From NCBI GenBank assembly GCA_021739695.1, contig JAIPBM010000008.1, positions 101,013-165,012 of the forward strand: a stretch of DNA of 64,000 nucleotides, given 5' to 3'. A model generated the notes under the pieces. It was not told where the DNA came from and made no database searches. It was given only the letters and a program-made list of their open reading frames with translations. This document shows, in pieces, positions 10,542 to 23,688 of this stretch. Made by a program: the position numbers and the translations under genes. Positions within the stretch are counted from its first letter, which is position 1, and every line of letters starts with the position of its first letter. The DNA comes from Flavobacteriales bacterium. GTDB taxonomy: Bacteria; Bacteroidota; Bacteroidia; UBA10329.

Positions 10542-10606
10542 GAGAAAAGGGAAAAAGGGAAAACGTGTCTCGAATGGGCACGTTTTCCCTTTTTCATTTT
10601 CTCCTT
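10542..10606. terminator. Terminator after dps; copy 1 of a dispersed hairpin
   Basis: The left arm at 10551-10567 and right arm at 10579-10595 pair perfectly over 17 bp (GAAAAAGGGAAAACGTG with its complement) around an 11-nt loop. A-rich and T-rich flanks make it work on either strand. The AAATGAGAAAAGGGAAAA lead-in recurs at 17.38 and 23.72 kb. Confidence 0.88.
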
Positions 10607-17440: not shown

Positions 17441-18913
17441 TCAGACTGAAAACCCGAACAGACAGATGTCATCCACCTGCTCCTCTGCCCTTTTCCATTC
17501 ATGAAGTTTTGAGATAAGTTGGGCCTTTCCTATATCGGCCATTGGCCCGTTGAGCGAGGCCAACCAACTGCGCAAGGAACGATGTCCCAGTTTCTTTCCT
17601 TGTTCGCCACCGAACTGATCCTGCAACCCGTCTGAATAGAGAAAATATCGGTCTGATGGGGTCATGGGCAATGCTACATCCATGAATGAACTTCCGTTCA
17701 ACTGCTGTTCACCTATGCTTTTGCGTGTGGCATCCACCAATTGTGTATCGCCATCACGCACTACCAAAAGCGGCCTCCGTGCTCCAGCGTAAGTGATTGT
17801 GGCCAATGAGCGATCGATCAGGCAAATGCCCATGTCCATTCCATCTGAAGATTGTCCGCTCTGCTGGCAACCGAAAGCTTTACAGATGCGCATATCAACA
17901 TACTTGAGAATGCCCGCAGGAGATGTAGCGCCTTCCATGTTCACGGCATCGTTGAGCAGATCATATCCCATGATCGTCATGAGCGCACCCGGAACGCCAT
18001 GCCCTGTGCAATCAGCCACGGCAACCAATGCACGGTTTTCATCCAAGCGGTGAAACCAAAGGAAATCGCCACTTACGGTGTCCTTTGGCAGATCAATGAA
18101 CAGTTGATCGGCAAAGAAGTCAGAAAGTTCGTCCCTACTGGGCTGAAGTGAGGTCTGCATACGTGCTGCATAACGGATGCCGGCCTCCAGATCCTCGGTC
18201 TTTTCGCGTAACTGTTCGTGGGTCTGTTTCAACTCCAGTTGACGCTTCTCATCCGATCGCATCATCACGCTTAGCGCTGCAAAAAGGATGATGGCAATAG
18301 CGCTGAATATGCCCAATGCCGCCCTGATATTGGCCACGGCATCGTCTTCGGCATACATCACAAAATCATCAAACGGATAGTCAACGGCCAGTGCTGCAAT
18401 CTGCTTTCCATCGGCAGTACGCAATGGTATAAGCGCAGAAAGCCACGTTCCGTAAGCATCCGTGTACACAGGTATTACACCACCCTGCTCATAAACATCC
18501 AAATGTTCCTGTACATGCGAGGTGTAAAGTAGCCCGTAGGTGGATACGCCATGGCTGGAAATGCCCAACCGCAATTGGTTGGTGTCCTTATCGCAGGTAA
18601 GCGTGTAGATTGGGGTTTTCAATTCGTTTGCATCGAACGCATTCCGAAGAATGCGACTGAACTGGCCGTAAACCGAGTCTGTTTTAAGTTGTATCGTGTC
18701 GAAAGAACCTAAGGGATATTGTTCGAAAAGCGCCTGTAAAAGCTCAACGTCCAACCGTGGCTCCAAGGTAGTTGCCACCGAACGCAAGCGCTCCAACACC
18801 AATCGCTCAGACAGGTCGAGACTTCGTTTGTATTGCCCATAGATGAGAAACGCTGCCAAAAGCAGCATTCCCATCAATACGGTGGTCAATATCCGTGCTC
18901 GGAATTTCCGCAT
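17441..18913 (-). CDS. SpoIIE-type PP2C phosphatase with periplasmic sensor
   Basis: From ATG at 18913 the protein has 490 residues: a short basic start, a membrane helix (TTVLMGMLLLAAFLIYGQY), a periplasmic region of ~190 residues, a second helix (ALGIFSAIAIILFAALSVMM), a coiled coil, and a PP2C SpoIIE domain (SGDFLWFHRL, ADCTGHGVPGALMTIMG, SDGLQDQFGG). It probably dephosphorylates a serine/threonine on an anti-sigma antagonist or similar partner in response to an envelope signal. A longer frame exists, but this start lies one base after the preceding gene's stop and gives a proper N-terminal anchor. Confidence 0.88.
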   Translation of the reverse strand: MRKFRARILTTVLMGMLLLAAFLIYGQYKRSLDLSERLVLERLRSVATTLEPRLDVELLQALFEQYPLGSFDTIQLKTDSVYGQFSRILRNAFDANELKTPIYTLTCDKDTNQLRLGISSHGVSTYGLLYTSHVQEHLDVYEQGGVIPVYTDAYGTWLSALIPLRTADGKQIAALAVDYPFDDFVMYAEDDAVANIRAALGIFSAIAIILFAALSVMMRSDEKRQLELKQTHEQLREKTEDLEAGIRYAARMQTSLQPSRDELSDFFADQLFIDLPKDTVSGDFLWFHRLDENRALVAVADCTGHGVPGALMTIMGYDLLNDAVNMEGATSPAGILKYVDMRICKAFGCQQSGQSSDGMDMGICLIDRSLATITYAGARRPLLVVRDGDTQLVDATRKSIGEQQLNGSSFMDVALPMTPSDRYFLYSDGLQDQFGGEQGKKLGHRSLRSWLASLNGPMADIGKAQLISKLHEWKRAEEQVDDICLFGFSV

Positions 18914-18914
18914 A

Positions 18915-19451
18915 TCAACTTTTTGACCAGTGTGTGATGCGTTCAAGTTCGAGGTGATCACCGAAATGCTTTCCGTAATGGCTTTCGGAAATGCGCTGAT
19001 CTCTTCCAATGAGGAAATCGGCCGGAATAATGGGTCTGTCCTTGGCCGCCTTGGTATTGAAGAACCCACTGGTCATTACCTGCCACATACGTTTGGGGCT
19101 GAGCATGGCCTTCACCATACCCGAAGCCGAACTTTCCACTCCGTACTTCCTGTACAGTTCGCCCGAAGGGTCAGGGATGATCGGAAACGGGGCCTGCTGC
19201 TTGCCGGCATACTCTGCTATCTGTGCTGCGGTAGAATTGAACACCACCATGACGTTCAGTCCGTGTGCCTTCAATTCGGGATAGGCGTTTATCAGTTCAT
19301 GCAATCGGAGGTTGCAGAACGGACAGGCCGCACCACGGAAGAAACTCAGCAGCACCTTTTTTCCTTCGTAGGAAGAAAGCTGCACCGTATTGCCGAGATA
19401 ATCGGATGTTTTGAAATCAATGGCCTTCTGATGGCGTTCCAATCTGCTCAT
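18915..19451 (-). CDS. AhpC/TSA-like redoxin (cytoplasmic peroxiredoxin-like)
   Basis: From ATG at 19451 the protein has 178 residues in the thioredoxin fold. The active-site region FFRGAACPFCNLRLHEL has a CxxC in place of the classical peroxiredoxin PxxxTxxC. It has no signal peptide. Proteins of this type reduce peroxides or disulfides; the exact substrate is unknown. It starts 7 bp after the preceding peroxiredoxin stop and ends one base before the SpoIIE phosphatase start, so it is clearly inside the operon. Confidence 0.85.
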   Translation of the reverse strand: MSRLERHQKAIDFKTSDYLGNTVQLSSYEGKKVLLSFFRGAACPFCNLRLHELINAYPELKAHGLNVMVVFNSTAAQIAEYAGKQQAPFPIIPDPSGELYRKYGVESSASGMVKAMLSPKRMWQVMTSGFFNTKAAKDRPIIPADFLIGRDQRISESHYGKHFGDHLELERITHWSKS

Positions 19452-20132: not shown

Positions 20133-20606
20133 TCAGTGCCCACCGAGCGGACAGCCACCGGAAGAACTGGACTTTTGTTCCAAACTGAGTTCTTTGACCA
20201 GATCAGCAGCGCCAACATACCCTTTGATGGTCTTTTTGACGGTTCCATCAGGGTTAATCACCAACATGGTCGGATAACCGGATATGGCGTAGCGCTCTTT
20301 CAAGGCAGGTCCTTCGCCCTTCTCCATGTCCATATTCAAAGAAATGTAATTGGCATTCACGGTCTCTACCACAAGACCATCGGTCATAGTGGTGCTTGCC
20401 ATTTTCTTACATACACCACACCACGAGGCATGGGCTTCCAACAGAATGGGCTTACCTGTTTCTGCCGAAAGTTTCAAGGCTTCTTCAAAAGAGCCTTCAA
20501 AATAGTTTATGGCAGGCGGGTTTTCGCGCTTAACCGCCCAACTGCTTGCTTCTGCTGTGGAGAACACTGCTATCAGCGATAAGATGGAAAGAAATGCTGT
20601 TTTCAT
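20133..20606 (-). CDS. Exported thioredoxin-like protein
   Basis: Starting at ATG 20606 it has 157 residues: a signal peptide (TAFLSILSLIAVFSTAEA), then a thioredoxin fold with AHASWCGVCKKM and the cis-Pro in SGYPTMLVI. The tail SSSSGGCPLGGH carries an extra Cys and His that may bind metal. It probably reduces periplasmic disulfides, as DsbD gamma-type or TlpA-like proteins do. A longer frame exists but would start inside the preceding gene's 3' end and lack a signal peptide. Confidence 0.85.
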   Translation of the reverse strand: MKTAFLSILSLIAVFSTAEASSWAVKRENPPAINYFEGSFEEALKLSAETGKPILLEAHASWCGVCKKMASTTMTDGLVVETVNANYISLNMDMEKGEGPALKERYAISGYPTMLVINPDGTVKKTIKGYVGAADLVKELSLEQKSSSSGGCPLGGH

Positions 20607-21165: not shown

Positions 21166-21304
21166 GTTAATTGATTTTGGTTATTGATTATTGAATTGAT
21201 TTTGAATTTTCATTTAGGTCCGGCTGCGGAAATTGGTAGAGCGGGGGTTGCAATTCATGCAACCTGCCCGCCCAAACCAACCACCAACCACCAACCAATG
21301 TGTT

Positions 21305-21901
21305 CTATGCTTTACGGGTAAGTTCGAGGGTGACTTTGATCTCCACCTCATCGCCAACGACCGCTGATGCAGCCCAACTTCCGGACCCGATACCGTATTC
21401 GTTACGATTGATGGTGGTCTTGAGTTGAACTCCTGACACAAGCGTTCCTTTCTTCATCGGATGCTCGGTTTCACCGAGGATCTTGAACGGAAGCGCTACT
21501 TCCTTGGTCACATCGCGGATGGTGAGCTTGCCATGCACTACGTAATTGCCATTGCCCTTGTCTTCAAACTTGGTGGAGGCGAATGTCATCTTCGGAAATT
21601 TCTTGGCGTTGAAGAAATCTCCGCTTTGAAGGTGGCCGTCACGTTTGGCATCGCGGGTATCAATGCTTGCCACATCGATACTGAAATCGGCCTTGCTGTT
21701 CAGCAGATTGTCCTTGTCGAGTTTCACGCTTCCTTCAAAATTATTGAAGCGGCCATCAACTGGAATAAGGAAGTGATTGACAGCAAATGTTACCGAGCTG
21801 TGCGAATTGTCAATGTCCCAAGCTGGTGCATCGATTGGTTTGAATGCGCTCAGAACAGGAACGAGAATGAGAGCCAGAAATAAACTTGAAATTGTTTTCA
21901 T
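21305..21901 (-). CDS. YceI family periplasmic lipid-binding protein
   Basis: The 198-residue protein has a signal peptide (ISSLFLALILVPVLSAFKP) and the YceI lipocalin-like fold beginning DIDNSHSSVTFAVNHF and including KRDGHLQSGDFFNAKKFPKMTF, the family signature. YceI proteins bind isoprenoid quinones or other polyprenoids in the periplasm. It is the first gene after the sigma/anti-sigma pair. A motif shared with the divergent methionine-rich gene lies 33 bp upstream of its start codon, suggesting ECF sigma control. Confidence 0.92.
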   Translation of the reverse strand: MKTISSLFLALILVPVLSAFKPIDAPAWDIDNSHSSVTFAVNHFLIPVDGRFNNFEGSVKLDKDNLLNSKADFSIDVASIDTRDAKRDGHLQSGDFFNAKKFPKMTFASTKFEDKGNGNYVVHGKLTIRDVTKEVALPFKILGETEHPMKKGTLVSGVQLKTTINRNEYGIGSGSWAASAVVGDEVEIKVTLELTRKA

Positions 21902-21934: not shown

Positions 21935-21960
21935 GGTCGGAGGTCAAGAGCGTTCCTTAC
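21935..21960 (-). promoter_or_regulatory. Candidate ECF promoter motif before YceI
   Basis: Read on the minus strand this is GTAAGGAAC, ten variable bases, TCCGACC. The same two blocks at the same spacing occur at 23203-23228 in front of the methionine-rich membrane gene. GGAAC is typical of -35 elements used by ECF sigma factors. It lies 33 bp before the YceI start. Confidence 0.6.
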
Positions 21961-21979
21961 ACCCCTCTCGAAAAAAAAA

Positions 21980-22258
21980 TCACTTTTCCTTATTCTCTTC
22001 GTTTTCGAGGTCTTTCAGAATGCGCATTTTCAGCTCTTCGCACTCTTCATGCACTTGAGGCAATTGGTCGCATTCGTCTTTCATGGCCGCGTCTATCATT
22101 GTAGTATGCGACTGATAATCTGAACAGGCCTTGCACATGCTGATGTGCAGCTTCAACTGAAATGTTTCAGTAGTGCTCAATTTCTTATCGAGCTTTTTCT
22201 CCATCAGCTCAGTGGCCTTACGGCACGAGAGCATCATTACGTTCATAATCTTACCCAT
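21980..22258 (-). CDS. Anti-sigma factor with zinc-binding motif
   Basis: The 92-residue protein has Cys12 and the HxxxCxxC motif (His38, Cys42, Cys45 in HISMCKAC) of ZAS-type anti-sigma factors such as RsrA and ChrR, which hold ECF sigmas through a zinc centre and release them upon oxidation or other signals. It has no membrane helix, so it is cytoplasmic. It overlaps the sigma gene by 8 bp, the usual arrangement. The redox proteins downstream fit a thiol-based oxidant response. Confidence 0.88.
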   Translation of the reverse strand: MGKIMNVMMLSCRKATELMEKKLDKKLSTTETFQLKLHISMCKACSDYQSHTTMIDAAMKDECDQLPQVHEECEELKMRILKDLENEENKEK

Positions 22259-22802
22259 TCGTCCAGTTTTTCTGCAGGCAGTCTCTTAATTTCAGTTTGG
22301 CGCGGTGCATGAGCTGCCAATAGTTGGTCGGTGATATGTTCAGTTCCTTACAGATGTGGTCGGCATCCAACTCTGAATAGTATTTCATCTGAATGACGGC
22401 AAAAAGGTTTTCGGGTAGCAGTTTTCGGCAGTGCAACAGTACGCGATTGAATTCGGCATTATCTAAAAGATGTACTTCCTCACCTGCCCGTGGCTGTGCC
22501 TCAGGTTTCCAATTGCCATCGGCATCAAAAAAATCGTCAGTCGAAACCATTTTTTCCGCTTCACGATAGTGCTTGCGGTAATGGTCCATCAACTTGTTTT
22601 TCAGTATCGAGAACAACCAAGTTCTTGCAGATGCCTCCTTATTGAAGTTGTCCCAGCCTTTGTAAGCGGCCAGAAAGGTTTCCTGTACAAGATCATCGGC
22701 ACTTGTCGCATCCTTCACCCGTGCTTTTGCATAGGCTAACAGCTCGGCCGTGTGGTCGTTCACCAGTTTGGTGATGGTTGAAGTGGCCGTTTGCGTGGTC
22801 AT
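22251..22802 (-). CDS. ECF-family RNA polymerase sigma factor
   Basis: The 183-residue protein has sigma region 2 (ADDLVQETFLAAYKGWDNF and TWLFSILKNKLMDHYRK) and region 4 (LLPENLFAVIQMKYYSELDADHICKELNISPTNYWQLMHRAKLKL), joined by an acidic linker, with no regions 1 or 3. Such sigmas redirect RNA polymerase to stress genes. It overlaps its anti-sigma gene by 8 bp and is separated by 9 bp from the small secreted protein upstream. The shared motif at 21935 and 23203 may be its promoter. Confidence 0.94.
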   Translation of the reverse strand: MTTQTATSTITKLVNDHTAELLAYAKARVKDATSADDLVQETFLAAYKGWDNFNKEASARTWLFSILKNKLMDHYRKHYREAEKMVSTDDFFDADGNWKPEAQPRAGEEVHLLDNAEFNRVLLHCRKLLPENLFAVIQMKYYSELDADHICKELNISPTNYWQLMHRAKLKLRDCLQKNWTNG

Positions 22803-22811
22803 GCGGCTAAG

Positions 22812-23177
22812 CTATGAGTTCGGTTCGGTTTTAGAAACTGCTGATCGTTTCTTTTTAGATCGGAAAGCATACTTGGTCAGCCCCGCCACATTCACCCAGA
22901 ACATGGCAAAATAATGAGGCGCGGCAAATACCGCTTCGTAGGTTTTTCCTTTCCGTTCACCCCGCTCCTGTACGCAGGCCTCGCCTATGTATGACATCCG
23001 TTTCCAATGGTGCGACCATTGCCCTTCGCAGCCATGCTCAAATACTTCCCGTGCCGTGATGCGAATGCATTCCCGATGTCCTTTGGCATTGCAGTTCAGC
23101 TTTACCTGAGCGGTGTCTGTCTGGGCCGAAACGGCAACCGATAGCATCAAGAAGAAAAGCGTTATGTGGATTCGCAT
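22812..23177 (-). CDS. Small secreted protein with cysteines, upstream of the sigma factor
   Basis: The 121-residue protein has a clear signal peptide (IHITLFFLMLSVAVSAQ, cleavage near residue 18). The mature part contains four cysteines (LNCNAKGHREC, FEHGCEGQ, GEACVQE) and a basic tail (RSKKKRS). I do not recognise a family. It is the first gene of the cluster and ends 9 bp before the sigma gene, so it is probably co-transcribed, possibly as the signal input of the system. Confidence 0.75.
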   Translation of the reverse strand: MRIHITLFFLMLSVAVSAQTDTAQVKLNCNAKGHRECIRITAREVFEHGCEGQWSHHWKRMSYIGEACVQERGERKGKTYEAVFAAPHYFAMFWVNVAGLTKYAFRSKKKRSAVSKTEPNS

Positions 23178-23190
23178 GGTGCCACAAATA

Positions 23191-23239
23191 TCTGAGGTAC
23201 CTGTAAGGAACTGGCAATCCGTCCGACCAATACCTCAGA
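23191..23239. promoter_or_regulatory. Divergent control region with 9-bp inverted repeat and ECF-like motif
   Basis: TCTGAGGTA (23191-23199) and TACCTCAGA (23231-23239) form a perfect inverted repeat 31 bases apart. Between them, on the plus strand, 23203-23228 holds GTAAGGAAC, nine bases, then GTCCGACC, matching the motif before YceI. It lies between the sigma operon (minus) and the methionine-rich gene (plus). Confidence 0.65.
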
Positions 23240-23268: not shown

Positions 23269-23688
23269 ATGAATTCTAACGTATCAAAATCAGTTATTTC
23301 CGGTGTTGCCGGAACAGCGGTAATGACCGCCATCATGTTCATCGCTCCGATGATGGGCATGCCGAAAATGAACCCTGCCGAGATGCTTTCATCCATGTCA
23401 GGAATGCCTGTTGCTGCTGGCTGGGCCATGCACTTCATGATCGGTATTGTGTTCGCTGCTGCTTACGTTTACCTGTTTGCAGCAAAAGTGAAGATCGGCA
23501 ACAGACTGCTGAAAGGTGCGGCTTTCGGTATGGCCGTTTTCATCTTTGCACAGGTGATGATGGGCATCATGGGGGCCATCATGGGCGGAATGCCGCAGCC
23601 CGAAGGTTCCATGGTTCTAATGATGATAGGAAGCGTCATGGGGCATGTGATCCACGGGGTTGTGGTGGTGGCTATTGTAAAGGAATAA
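23269..23688 (+). CDS. Methionine-rich small multi-pass membrane protein
   Basis: From ATG at 23269 the protein has 139 residues and four membrane helices. About 22 residues are methionine (~16%), clustered in helices, e.g. FIAPMMGMPKMNPAEM and AQVMMGIMGAIMGGMP. It resembles the uncharacterised DUF6789-type membrane proteins, a tentative identification. Met-rich helices suggest soft-metal binding (copper or silver) or a sacrificial target for oxidants. It is divergent from the sigma operon and has the shared ECF-like motif 40 bp upstream. Longer frames upstream overlap that control region and lack support. Confidence 0.78.
   Translation: MNSNVSKSVISGVAGTAVMTAIMFIAPMMGMPKMNPAEMLSSMSGMPVAAGWAMHFMIGIVFAAAYVYLFAAKVKIGNRLLKGAAFGMAVFIFAQVMMGIMGAIMGGMPQPEGSMVLMMIGSVMGHVIHGVVVVAIVKE

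Follow-up and report, generated by a model that had tools for sequence, protein, structure and literature searches.

The window analysed here, a stretch of 64,000 nucleotides from a Flavobacteriales bacterium, contains an ECF sigma factor gene and a zinc-finger anti-sigma gene, flanked by genes for a YceI family protein and a methionine-rich membrane protein. The genes of the locus are as follows:

17441-18952, minus strand: SpoIIE-type phosphatase (PF07228), end of the cluster; same cluster in related locus L049
18915-19454, minus strand: AhpC/TSA-like peroxiredoxin 2 (PF00578), possible read-through target; adjoins YceI in L049
19459-20094, minus strand: AhpC/TSA-like peroxiredoxin 1 (PF00578), possible read-through target
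20133-20606, minus strand: thioredoxin-fold protein (PF13899), possible read-through target; directly after YceI in L047
20659-21165, minus strand: cytochrome P460-like lipoprotein (PF16694), possible read-through target
21305-21901, minus strand: YceI family periplasmic protein (PF04264), presumed target
21980-22258, minus strand: zinc-finger (ZAS-type) anti-sigma factor, 92 aa (zf-HC2; C12, H38, C42, C45)
22251-22802, minus strand: ECF sigma factor, 183 aa (Sigma70_r2 and Sigma70_r4_2)
23269-23688, plus strand: Met-rich membrane protein DUF6789 (PF20587), presumed target

A sequence-only reading had placed an ECF sigma/zinc anti-sigma pair between YceI and the membrane gene, and the domains found (Sigma70_r2, Sigma70_r4_2 and zf-HC2) bear this out. 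The sigma is of ECF type, with both sigma domains and without region 3. TIGR02943 (Sig70_famx1) is its nearest named family among NCBIfam models, but the scores (141.8 and 141.4 bits) are lower than the curated cut-off of 162.2 and the sigma is not classed as a member. The two genes share 8 bp, the anti-sigma start lying across the end of the sigma gene. Its product contains the H-x3-C-x2-C pattern (H38, C42, C45) and an upstream cysteine (C12) that together with the position next to the sigma gene define the ZAS type, and it scores 23.3 bits with zf-HC2 (cut-off 22.2) and 55 with NF052368 (cut-off 50). With the RsrA-type redox-switch model TIGR03988 it scores 21.2 bits, below the curated cut-off of 62.5. 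A 121-aa ORF upstream of the sigma gene (22812-23177, minus strand) has no Pfam or NCBIfam matches, and no tblastn matches in the related loci searched.

The same reading had reported two 26-nt blocks sharing GTAAGGAAC and TCCGACC, one before YceI (21935-21960, minus strand) and one before the membrane gene (23203-23228, plus strand). Both are real and exactly placed, and their distances from the start codons, 33 bp for YceI (ATG at 21901) and 40 bp for DUF6789 (ATG at 23269), lie in the 33-40 bp range that had been given. The count of two is incomplete: a third copy, at 22326-22351 on the minus strand, had been overlooked. It lies within the ECF sigma gene, with 67 bp between it and the ATG of the anti-sigma gene. 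This copy is perfect if the first T of TCCGACC is left free. The conserved core of related sites is TGTMAGGAA-N13-CGWC, so this T is not in the motif. The three predicted promoters are as follows:

21935-21961, minus strand: predicted sigma-type promoter of YceI, TGTAAGGAAC-N12-CGACC, perfect motif; same place before YceI in L047, L048 and L049
22326-22352, minus strand: predicted promoter within the coding part of the sigma gene (region 4; codons TGT AAG GAA CTG ... CCG ACC), perfect motif
23202-23228, plus strand: predicted sigma-type promoter of DUF6789, perfect motif; counterparts in L047 and, with TGTCAGG, in L050

Genome-wide (4.24 Mb), GTAAGGAAC-N11-CCGACC has 3 perfect matches and none with exactly one mismatch, and the other matches listed have 2 or 3 mismatches each. 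The perfect matches are not scattered at random sites; all three fall within 1.3 kb, before YceI, before DUF6789 and inside the ECF sigma gene. Allowing up to 3 mismatches, 4 matches are found in the window against 0.35 in shuffles, and none of 100 shuffles reaches 4. A chance match of the two blocks is ruled out by the shuffle and whole-genome counts. A 9-bp perfect inverted repeat, TCTGAGGTA/TACCTCAGA (23191-23199 and 23231-23239), brackets the DUF6789 promoter; no such repeat is seen around the L047 site.

Within the genus, the sigma is present in 5 of 9 genomes, and all five genes contain the internal site with at most one mismatch to the GTAAGGAAC-N11-CCGAC pattern. YceI lies beside the sigma in four of the five, each with the motif 32-34 bp upstream; generally, the motif is located 32-42 bp ahead of YceI or DUF6789 in congeners. 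DUF6789 is preceded by the motif in genome G004 and also in G007, there as TGTCAGGAACGCTCCTTGTCGCGACC. In G007 three genes, those for DUF6789, the phosphatase and the AhpC-like peroxiredoxin, alike show the -35 changed to TGTCAGG. The 4 congeners without the sigma are also without this YceI, a weak result in that the search had no positive control and 2 of these genomes are less than 90% complete. Searching them for the motif at up to one mismatch gave nothing in three and a single 1-mismatch match in the fourth (G008). In L049, an extra motif copy, GTAAGGAATTTGAAATTCGTGCGAC (10579-10603), is found right after the SpoIIE-type phosphatase gene.

We consider it very likely that the motif is the promoter of the adjacent sigma, and that the sigma, freed by redox stress, drives YceI, DUF6789 and, from the internal promoter, its own anti-sigma. 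The promoter it would read consists of a -35 element TGTMAGGAA, a 13-nt spacer and a -10 element CGWCTAA. Redox stress, a signal suggested by the zinc motif and the target genes, would free the sigma from the zinc-finger anti-sigma, and the free sigma would start transcription at DUF6789 and at YceI, perhaps on into P460, thioredoxin and the peroxiredoxins. It would also fire the third promoter, in its own region-4 codons, which we take to be those of the helix-turn-helix, leading to extra anti-sigma and a braked response. The internal copy is located just ahead of the anti-sigma gene and is kept across much of Bacteroidota, so the sigma appears to switch on its own brake; as a promoter of this type ahead of the sigma gene is absent in this genome, the loop would be negative only.

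A precedent for this wiring is Corynebacterium glutamicum sigH-rshA, in which a SigH-dependent promoter inside sigH drives rshA only, sigH itself is transcribed from housekeeping promoters, and the rshA start points lie 62 and 66 nt before rshA (PMC3489674). The site and spacing here agree with rshA, but the phylum and the promoter sequence (TGGAAGA / TGTTAAA) are different. It is by analogy to this pair that the active sigma would be expected to raise its own anti-sigma.

For Bacteroidota as a whole, 112 homologous sigma genes were gathered, using a profile based on 15 of these genes. A ZAS-type gene follows the sigma at each of the 78 loci examined, mostly 60-90 nt after the -10; L158 is the sole case without the full H-x3-C-x2-C pattern in this gene. 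These loci bear on another reading of the internal site, which we regard as unlikely: that it is active, but mainly raises the downstream genes (anti-sigma plus YceI by read-through) or yields a short regulatory RNA, and is not a brake. YceI follows the anti-sigma on the same strand in this genome, which would let transcription begun at the internal site run into it. However, the first gene behind the site is the ZAS-type anti-sigma in 78 of 78 loci, and a separate motif often precedes the gene after that (a perfect one in 31 of 112).

Aligned to SigW (5wuq), the codons of the internal site map to region 4, and the peptide encoded there is C-K/Q-E-L-x-I-S/T-x-S/T-N. This peptide is well conserved and back-translates close to the motif, and the -35 part alone is partly forced by it, so the internal copy might be its by-product, with promoters only at the intergenic copies. 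Several results make this quite improbable. When each protein was held fixed and synonymous codons were drawn (400 draws), 0.7 perfect copies of TGTMAGGAA-N13-CGWC were expected at the internal codons (maximum of the draws 4), while 41 of the 112 homologues have one; at up to one mismatch, 75 of 112 have the site against 7.4 expected (maximum 13). These homologues are related and the counts are not independent, but proteins only 38-63% identical have diverged long enough for codon choice to drift, and the perfect copies are spread over 18 of 40 family labels, some outside the class of the window. Among 176 codon columns, the top four outliers in codon choice are NCG (z 16.8), MAG (11.4), TGT (10.2) and WCT (5.9), each of which ends in a letter of the motif. 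At this place in the site, 52 of the 68 S/T/A/P codons are NCG, whatever the residue, against 15% elsewhere in the same genes, and in the adjoining codon this bias is absent (5 of 74).

The degenerate bases of the internal site also covary with the intergenic sites of the same locus: M (A/C) agrees in 33 of 36 cases (p 5e-6) and W (A/T) in 29 of 35 (p 1e-4). L050, with A at the internal M and C at the intergenic sites, counts against this. Such covariation is as would be predicted for recognition by one sigma, and shared ancestry contributes too. Peptide conservation alone as the source of the internal site is rejected on the synonymous null model, the neighbour-codon control and this covariation. 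The constraint on the internal copy thus lies at the DNA level, and the copy is both the new result and the most informative of the three; in the open-licence literature, no sigma-internal anti-sigma promoter was found for Bacteroidota.

The repeated motif is very probably a promoter signal read by the neighbouring ECF sigma. This proposal, already part of the sequence-only reading, is well supported by comparative evidence, namely the conserved placement, the joint change of the -35, the enrichment of spacer 13 and the likeness to Neisseria sigmaE. Within 3 kb of the 78 sigmas, 19 extra copies with an exact -35 have spacer 13, against 0-1 copies for any other spacer length between 8 and 19. 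Genes behind the extra copies (exact or with one -35 mismatch) include those for YceI, DUF6789, thioredoxin, P460, YHS-domain proteins, DUF417, DUF1223 and MsrA. The inverted repeat around the DUF6789 site might point to operators of another DNA-binding regulator instead of sigma promoters, which is highly improbable given that the motif is bipartite and non-palindromic, with its orientation fixed towards the gene and its spacer fixed at 13, that it resembles the Neisseria sigmaE consensus, and that its presence tracks the sigma gene within the genus.

The Neisseria consensus is GTMAGBWTT / CGTCTAAH, with a spacer of 12-13 nt between GTMAGBWTT and CGTC (PMC2893595). It shares GTMAGG and CGTC(TAA) with the motif here and the spacing fits too, while the -35 end is WTT in Neisseria and GAAC here, the window sites having GGAAC, and CGACC instead of CGTCT. 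The intergenic -35s are preceded by AT-rich tracts, as also reported for Neisseria (PMC2893595). Neisseria sigmaE / MseR (PMC2893595, PMC3240639) and Haemophilus RpoE2 / HrsE (PMC7907618) are likewise pairs of an ECF sigma and a small anti-sigma, and methionine sulfoxide reductase is a Neisseria target; the msrA gene of L151 is preceded by a sigma site with 1 mismatch. Neisseria rpoE lies in a positively autoregulated operon, unlike the internal-promoter layout here, and in a Haemophilus reporter rpoE2 was very little controlled by its own product (PMC7907618). The internal site is absent from 9 Pseudomonadota homologues (plasmid-collection loci, including the gonococcal Ecf locus), and the gonococcal homologue L206 has 7 mismatches at these codons. 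In a Flavobacterium psychrophilum start-site map, a CGT-type ECF motif is tied to T9SS genes (PMC9723704).

The sigma had further been proposed to control YceI, P460, thioredoxin and the peroxiredoxins together with the membrane gene. This is probable for YceI and DUF6789, which have their own sites, while control of P460, thioredoxin and the peroxiredoxins would depend on read-through past a stable hairpin in the 139-bp YceI-P460 gap (21190-21304, minus strand; -44.5 kcal/mol, z -3.3 against shuffles, without a T run), which may limit it. In relatives, own sites precede the P460-like gene (L141), the thioredoxin gene (L054), and the homologues of peroxiredoxin 1 (TGTCAGGAC...CGAC) and the phosphatase (both L050). 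At the strict consensus, no more targets were seen elsewhere in this genome, and the remaining near-matches are mostly inside ORFs. Nor does this consensus show any sign of a large dispersed regulon: TGTMAGG-N15-CGWC occurs genome-wide as the three locus copies plus two inside ORFs, not above a reversed-pattern control.

About a third of the 112 homologues are without the internal site. Of these 37 homologues, 8 have TGTMAGG-N15-CGWC in perfect form ahead of the sigma gene, against 0 of the 75 having the internal site; at one mismatch the comparison is 8 against 1 (Fisher p 5e-4). Seven of the 8 come from one family label (f40), so they represent few independent events. Where the -10 is intact, the second codon of the site encodes lysine or glutamine in 63 of 75 homologues, compared with 19 of 37 where it is not. 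Canonical autoregulated ECF operons also contain sigma and anti-sigma in one operon, but have the promoter ahead of the sigma gene and a positive plus negative loop (review PMC8103513); this layout exists here only in some homologues without the internal site, e.g. L121, L123, L127 and L139.

Across Bacteroidota, the same codons of the sigma gene probably encode both the region-4 helix-turn-helix and a sigma-dependent promoter, so that the DNA specifying the reading domain contains the very sequence which this domain reads. It would then be the promoter, and not protein function alone, that fixes the codon choice and favours Lys or Gln at one residue, where the two alternate with the A/C of GTMAG, and evolution could switch the circuit between a negative-only loop and upstream autoregulation by moving one promoter.

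Predictions of which promoters an ECF sigma recognises usually start from the autoregulated promoter ahead of its gene. Members of this group that have no upstream site would seem non-autoregulated, but the sequence they target is legible within the sigma genes themselves. For many Bacteroidota sigmas that are still uncharacterised, and for their redox genes, the internal sites would allow promoters to be predicted, and they offer a clean case of DNA-level selection acting through coding sequence.

Several homologues deviate from the common pattern. In family label f54 (L147, L154, L158, L159, L162, L223-L226), asparagine replaces the lysine, giving TGTAATGA, and NCG-TCT-AAY is kept; this may perhaps reflect a shifted -35 preference. 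L152, L156 and L157, from one genus label, are without the region-4 site and have TGTCAGG-N15-CGAC elsewhere in the sigma gene, about 224 bp before the place of that site, perhaps a moved internal promoter. The sigma match in L144 (genome G086) contains one TGA inside.
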